A DNA stretch of 64,000 bases, from the NCBI GenBank assembly GCA_025934485.1, contig JAICXX010000008.1:1-64000 (forward strand), written 5' to 3'. Both the position numbers and the translations under genes were made by a program. Source of the stretch: Chitinophagaceae bacterium. Its GTDB lineage: Bacteria > Bacteroidota > Bacteroidia > Chitinophagales > Chitinophagaceae. How positions within the stretch are numbered: position 1 is the first letter of the stretch; every line of letters begins with the position of its first letter. Shown here in pieces: positions 38,501 to 39,458 of this stretch. The notes under the pieces are model-generated. The model was not told where the DNA came from. It did not search any database and worked only from the letters and a program-made list of their open reading frames with translations.

Positions 38501-39334
38501 GGTGACACCGATGAGGAAGTCCTGACCGAGATGTGACACCTCGTCTTTGTTCTCCTGGAGATAGGTAATGTATTTATCCGGTGAGGAAAAACTGCCTTGC
38601 ATCATGCGTTTGTTGATGCGGCGCAGGATCGTCGGGGTTTTATAATAATGAAATTCCACACCGGACTGGCCGTGGATGAGATCGAAGACCGTCTTCAGGA
38701 ATTGGTCGTCCTTTTTATCGTTACCGTAGAGATAGGGCGGGGGTGGTGAGATATAGTGCATGATCTCGCTGTATATGGCAGCGGGCGGCAGGACATAGTC
38801 GGCGTTGCCGGCGGCGATCACGCTATTAGGCATCCCGTCAAACCTGGCGGTGGAAGGATCTTGTACGATCACGAGTCCACCTTCCTTTTTTATGGCTTCG
38901 GTGCCTTTGGTCCCGTCCGTGCCGGTGCCGGAAAGGATGACGGCGATGGCTTTGTCCTTGCGCTCCCTGGCGAGCGAATAAAGAAAGACATCTACCGCGT
39001 TATTGGGGAGTTTTCCGTTCTTTTTTTCAGTGAGCCGGAGCTTGTTCTTCTGGATGGTGATGAGCTTGGTGTTGGGAATGACGTAGATGCATTTCCGCTC
39101 GATCTCCTGGAGGTCGGCTGCTTCATAGACATTCATATCCGTGTGGCGGGCGACCAGCTCTACCAGCAGGCTTTTATAATCCGGTGAAAGGTGTTGGATG
39201 ATGATGAATGAGGTATAGGGAGTCTCCGGCATACTGTCGAAAAACTCATGAATGGCCTCCAGTCCGCCTGCCGAGGCGCCTATGGCGACGATATAATGGT
39301 TATATCTGTTTGCTGGTGTAATAAGTATTTTCTT
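35516..39334 (-). CDS. CheB-CheR-PAS-histidine kinase hybrid; coding extends upstream of the ORF-track ATG (39232)
   Basis: CheB: [28 protein letters not shown] encoded upstream of 39232, plus [21 protein letters not shown]. CheR: [31 protein letters not shown]. Coiled coil NEELQ repeats, PAS, HisKA ([13 protein letters not shown]), HATPase ([16 protein letters not shown]). Confidence 0.9.
   Translation of the reverse strand, partial: [1272 protein letters not shown]
37148..37265 (-). repeat. 21-bp-period heptad repeats encoding xxNEELQ coiled coil
   Basis: [39 protein letters not shown]. Confidence 0.8.
37345..37421 (-). repeat. Short-period tandem repeat encoding an Asn/Gly/His/Ser-rich linker
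   Basis: Encodes [24 protein letters not shown]. Confidence 0.75.
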
Positions 39335-39458
39335 TTAAATATGGGACAGTCTTGTGGATTTTTTTCCACAAAATTGTCGTCCATCTGTGACAGTTTATTT
39401 TATTTCCCTCTGGGGAAACCAAATACACAGAAAGAATTGAACAAAAACGCGGCCATTT

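Follow-up and report, generated by a model that had tools for sequence, protein, structure and literature searches.

infC is the classical gene with an ATT start, and pcnB also has a near-cognate translation start. In genes of this kind (infC, pcnB, rnhC, rsbW, cvfC1, and ccpN), the frame is intact with AUH at the start position, none of ATG, GTG, and TTG is found at the conserved N-terminus, and a low yield is expected. In Listeria, for example, infC starts with ATT and rsbW with ATT/ATA is still expressed, and fixed near-cognate starts are rare, amounting to under 0.3% of the core genes (PMC13068326). Near-cognate starts in S. aureus, namely those of infC (AUA), cvfC1 (AUU), and ccpN, work at about 10% of AUG (PMC13009471).

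Here we describe a candidate case of this kind in the window, i.e., the whole stretch of 64,000 nucleotides that was analysed, from a Chitinophagaceae bacterium: the gene of a CheB/CheR kinase (cheB/R) has an intact and selected frame with no canonical start at its conserved N-terminus, and a low yield would be expected here as well. In the infC-type genes, the near-cognate start is a conserved regulatory one, whereas the putative start described here belongs to Bacteroidota without SD help and is located at a deletion junction. Also comparable to this gene are the CheB/CheR-PAS-histidine kinases of Bacteroidota, which have the same domain order (CheB, CheR, coiled-coil/PAS_10, PAS_3, HisKA, HATPase_c); the window gene differs from them in lacking a start codon and one PAS-like stretch of ~108 residues. 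As in the hemO-bphP operons of bacteriophytochromes, furthermore, relatives of the window genome carry hemO and bphP upstream of the kinase gene, but their phytochrome is kinase-less and followed by the CheB/CheR kinase, and the window has neither hemO nor bphP.

Results

Pfam assigned to the frame, in this order, CheB (PF01339, 176 bits), CheR_N (PF03705), CheR (PF01739), PAS_10 (PF13596), PAS_3 (PF08447), HisKA (PF00512), and HATPase_c (PF02518) (Table 1). The PAS-like stretch is missing between PAS_10 and PAS_3 and is present in all three orthologues. Ser21, His48, and Asp140 are aligned with the conserved catalytic positions of the solved CheB chains 3sft, 6ymz, and 1chd, and the Ser-His-Asp triad of the methylesterase domain is hence intact. 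A preliminary description had listed an inactivated CheB domain among its options; with this triad in place and constraint in the protein being strongest in CheB, an inactivation by amino-acid change is not borne out.

The codons after the closing TAA read AAG AAA ATA CTT ATT ACA CCA GCA AAC AGA TAT AAC CAT TAT and go on with ATC GTC GCC ATA GGC GCC TCG GCA GGC GGA, reaching the GASAGG motif. Codon-by-codon reading found none of ATG, GTG, and TTG between TAA 39337-39335 and GASAGG in this frame, and the first in-frame ATG falls on residue 35, past the nucleophile Ser21; the preliminary description was right on both points, and also in its reading of a second frame that begins at ATG 39384. When 39 conserved, non-overlapping genes in the window and the next 16 kb were examined as a control set, a canonical start near the start of the orthologue was missing in the CheB/CheR kinase alone (1/39).

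Table 1. Coordinates and strands of the features around cheB/R
Feature	Position	Strand	Basis or remark
Single-domain response regulator, downstream	35100..35519	-	Pfam PF00072; orthologue in G012
CheB-CheR-PAS-HisKA-HATPase frame (P0001)	35516..39334	-	stop to stop, 1272 codons; Pfam
Site of in-frame loss, ~108 residues, PAS-like domain	36779..36780	-	alignment
First in-frame ATG (Met35)	39230..39232	-	sequence; a start here drops the CheB nucleophile
GASAGG nucleophile motif and neighbours (Ser21 codon 39274-39272)	39257..39280	-	alignment to 3sft, 6ymz, 1chd
Second frame, MDDNFVEK...ISSP-stop, chance ORF within the scar	39280..39384	-	no counterpart in orthologues
ATT, proposed near-cognate start, residue 5 of the open frame	39320..39322	-	alignment to orthologue start/second codon; context
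Probable remnant of hemO codons 6-10 (TTAAAAGAAAATAC)	39325..39338	-	collinear
ATA, second candidate near-cognate start	39326..39328	-	in frame; context 0.57
TAA closing the CheB frame upstream	39335..39337	-	sequence
Inverted repeat TTGTGGA...TCCACAA	39352..39371	.	as upstream of hemO in G031
Remnant of the phospholipase C gene 5' end (coding strand of relatives, +), beside the fdhA stop	39429..39461	-	
fdhA-like molybdopterin oxidoreductase, upstream neighbour	39459..41762	-	~6.2 kb upstream of cheB/R in relatives

Orthologues were taken from three genomes of the same genus, all metagenome-assembled and from Bacteroidota/Chitinophagales (G017, JAFDYG010000490; G012, JAATGQ010000041; G031, JAFDYE010000176), and are 82-86% identical to the window protein over the first 211 residues. 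The preliminary description had proposed to compare the N-termini of orthologues and would have dropped its claim if these lacked GASAGG; the N-terminal segment including GASAGG is in fact common to all three and the window. In every one of them, ATG directly starts the CheB frame where the window reads CTT/ATT, and a more distant homologue (G030) is likewise ATG-started. The ATG of the orthologues falls on CTT 39325, or on ATT 39322 given a one-codon deletion (ATGAGTACG to ATTACA).

Selection on the frame was examined by four-taxon codon likelihood, for which the best topology joined the window with G012 and G017 with G031. Omega (dN/dS) was 0.054 on the window branch vs 0.051 elsewhere. For residues 11-34, i.e., upstream of Met35, omega of the window branch was at most 0.02, with at least 10 synonymous changes specific to the window as against none that altered an amino acid; the remainder of CheB gave 0.02. 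The marks of a pseudogene (stops, frameshifts, relaxed selection) were looked for across the 1272 codons and none was found, the start being the sole lesion. As judged from these codon comparisons, the reading frame remained under normal selection. Any time free of selection amounts to at most ~0.7% of the branch for the whole gene and at most ~2% for the N-terminus only, where the window branch with ~5.2 neutral changes per codon is near saturation and the test bounds but does not date the loss. Given the unchanged omega and these bounds, the gene is therefore either in use to this day or was lost a very short time ago.

In G017 and G031, the gene order is fdhA, two opposite-strand genes (serine carboxypeptidase-like and phospholipase C), hemO, bphP, and cheB/R. 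Their bphP encodes 507-510 residues with PAS_2, GAF, and PHY but no kinase, and the ATG of cheB/R sits within the 3' end of bphP. G012 retains hemO-bphP-cheB/R; just upstream of its hemO (L040 7100-7450), the tail of fdhA and the N-terminal part of fdhD form one in-frame fusion, which is another deletion in the hemO neighbourhood. In the window, fdhA directly adjoins cheB/R and ends 124 bases upstream of its frame. The 93%-complete assembly of the window genome (G000) gave no PAS_2 domain, no match to BphP, and no significant heme oxygenase, the BphP search having run in G000 with no internal positive control and the PAS_2 method having found PAS_2 in three relatives. With no match in G000, a translocation of hemO/bphP to elsewhere in the genome was rejected.

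The gap between fdhA and cheB/R contains remnants of the lost genes, which follow the ancestral order throughout 39461-39325. The phospholipase C remnant matches G017 and G031 independently (28/33 and 24/28 aligned bases, respectively), none of 300 shuffles being as good, and has diverged by ~0.15 substitutions per base with several amino-acid changes. The score of the inverted repeat against G031 exceeded those of all 300 shuffles. TTAAAAGAAAATAC is identical to hemO of G017 at 14 of 14 bases, a match that block shuffles attained once in 300 when the whole lost block was searched and never in 5000 when only the 5' end of hemO was, and is thus a probable remnant of hemO. No homology of the gap to G012 was found. 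The inverted repeat upstream of hemO varies among the relatives (L041, L040, and L039; TGTGGA/TCCACA, GGGGAA/TTCCCC) and is retained in the window gap; in G012 and G031, the repeat is followed by TACCTTTG, which might be a -7 box of the Bacteroidota type and is absent at this place from the window.

Because hemO and bphP are gone and decayed, collinear remnants are left in the gap, the start is considered to have been lost as a deletion scar and not by a frameshift. As far as gene order and remnants tell, the comparison shows that the cheB/R start was lost together with the overlapping bphP by deletion. The ancestral operon was hemO - bphP - cheB/R-kinase - response regulator with cheB/R as its third gene, and the window lineage has deleted hemO and bphP along with the neighbouring phospholipase and peptidase genes. 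With the deletion endpoint at the cheB/R start, the ATG inside the bphP end was therefore removed with bphP. The phospholipase and hemO-bphP deletions may be one event or separate ones.

Candidate starts were then scored with a start-context profile built from 91 clear ATG starts of the window contig and related contigs. ATT 39322 scored 6.08, which is above 69% of the 91 real starts and within the top 0.3% of random positions, although the profile does not resolve codons at a distance of three bases (the neighbours CTT and ACA scored 5.15 and 5.63). The real ATGs of the orthologues scored 4.5-5.1. The score of ATA 39328 is surpassed by 9% of random positions, and that of ATG 39232 (-0.77) by 16%. 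The region around ATT 39322 is unstructured (MFE -3.8 kcal/mol) and has A at -6, -7 to -9, and -11 to -14, but C at -3. In F. johnsoniae, A-3, A-6, and A-12/-13 are determinants of initiation (PMC6847099), which the context of ATT 39322 appears to fit, C at -3 excepted. The preliminary description had named a rare ATT or ATA start; by position and context, ATT 39322 would be favoured over ATA 39328.

Discussion

We consider it about an even chance that the full-length protein with its intact CheB triad would be made, at a reduced level, from ATT 39322. This codon would correspond to the start of the orthologues, and the initiation region around it is unstructured and rich in A, as in Bacteroidota. 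Since the Bacteroidota promoter pattern TTTG-N16-23-TAnnTTTG had no match in the gap upstream of cheB/R, transcription might most likely occur as read-through from fdhA. Counting against the use of ATT are the lack of strong SD help in Bacteroidota, C at -3, the similar context scores of the neighbouring codons, and the missing promoter match. Also, infC starts with ATG and never with ATT in eight genomes of the genus, which therefore provide no internal example of ATT initiation. A further step, in which cheB/R was long kept on a deliberately weak ATT as a low-dose, light-independent phytochrome kinase, perhaps with translational coupling to the short 39384 ORF, is rather unlikely; this ORF ends 40 bases past ATT 39322, comparable to the end of bphP past the ATG in the relatives.

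Alternatively, the start might have been removed recently with loss of the CheB active site, leaving either a protein from ATG 39232 (broken CheB with intact CheR and kinase) or an early pseudogene, and we hold this as a tentative but serious possibility. Young pseudogenes are common in bacteria; fixed near-cognate starts are rarer than fresh pseudogenes, which speaks against the use of ATT. The original light-sensing role is lost, because the photoreceptor partner, the biliverdin source, and a PAS domain are missing, and the hemO-like remnant is still fully identical to G017. The same selection signal would arise if the start had disappeared no earlier than the final 0.7% (judged by the whole gene) to 2% (judged by the N-terminus) of the branch. 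The loss must then, however, fall within this last portion of a long branch, with 1272 codons free of stops and frameshifts and omega nowhere raised, and the start context of ATG 39232 is poor. The adjoining phospholipase remnant is, furthermore, clearly older, but the phospholipase gene may have been deleted independently. A misjoined or miscalled junction in this metagenome-type assembly, the true genome having a canonical start, is improbable: the assembly is indeed fragmented (381 contigs) and one altered base in the candidate codons would suffice for ATG, but the gap holds decayed collinear remnants and is not a clean misjoin, hemO and bphP are found nowhere else in the 93%-complete assembly, and indels in the A7 run restore no frame.

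Least credible to us is a -1 frameshift, be it programmed or accidental, that leads out of the ATG 39384 ORF into the CheB frame, another option of the preliminary description, which we have rejected. The context of ATG 39384 is fair (3.66), and the only slip candidate, a weak A_AAA at 39331-39328, would bring translation into the CheB frame. This leader ORF is, however, present in none of the three orthologues, all of which start directly in the CheB frame, and it lies on remnants of other genes, i.e., of the deleted block. Neither a conserved upstream frame nor a good slippery site, as known for programmed -1 frameshifting, was found; reading of 39334-39280 gave no X_XXY_YYZ heptamer, and no stable downstream structure was seen. 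The related suggestion of an indel in A/T runs needs correction: an indel in the A7 run (~39365-39359) cannot restore the frame, as TAA 39337 would still interrupt it; a shift between 39334 and ~39280, the only interval possible, could join the two frames.

Apart from the start, kinase-less bphP loci (PAS_2-GAF-PHY, ~500-520 aa) were examined (L084, L089, L091, L093, L094, L099, L101, and L104; also L039 7450-13631, L040, and L041). The next frame is CheB-first in 8 of 8 loci (two Pfam-confirmed as CheB, the rest by the CheB motif), and a Pfam-confirmed heme oxygenase precedes bphP in six of the eight. This hemO - kinase-less bphP - CheB/CheR cluster suggests a split light receptor, of which the output is a CheB/CheR histidine kinase. 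In four loci (L084, L093, L094, and L101), no canonical start other than GTG precedes the CheB motif, and weak starts may hence be a habit of the CheB-first gene of this cluster. Within the literature covered, which was incomplete, we found no paper that pairs a bacteriophytochrome with a kinase of the CheB/CheR type.

The case of cheB/R is that of a near-cognate start or of a fresh start loss at a deletion scar, and, with near-cognate starts already known, is a modest addition. It shows how synteny can explain a missing start that looks like a frameshift; namely, the start lay inside a deleted neighbour. If the ATT start is used, automatic annotation from 39232 cuts off the catalytic serine of CheB, and the gene would provide a near-cognate start that arose naturally in a phylum without SD pairing, for which few studies of such starts exist. 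The comparison has, furthermore, brought to light that heme oxygenase, kinase-less phytochrome, and CheB/CheR kinase genes recur as a cluster.
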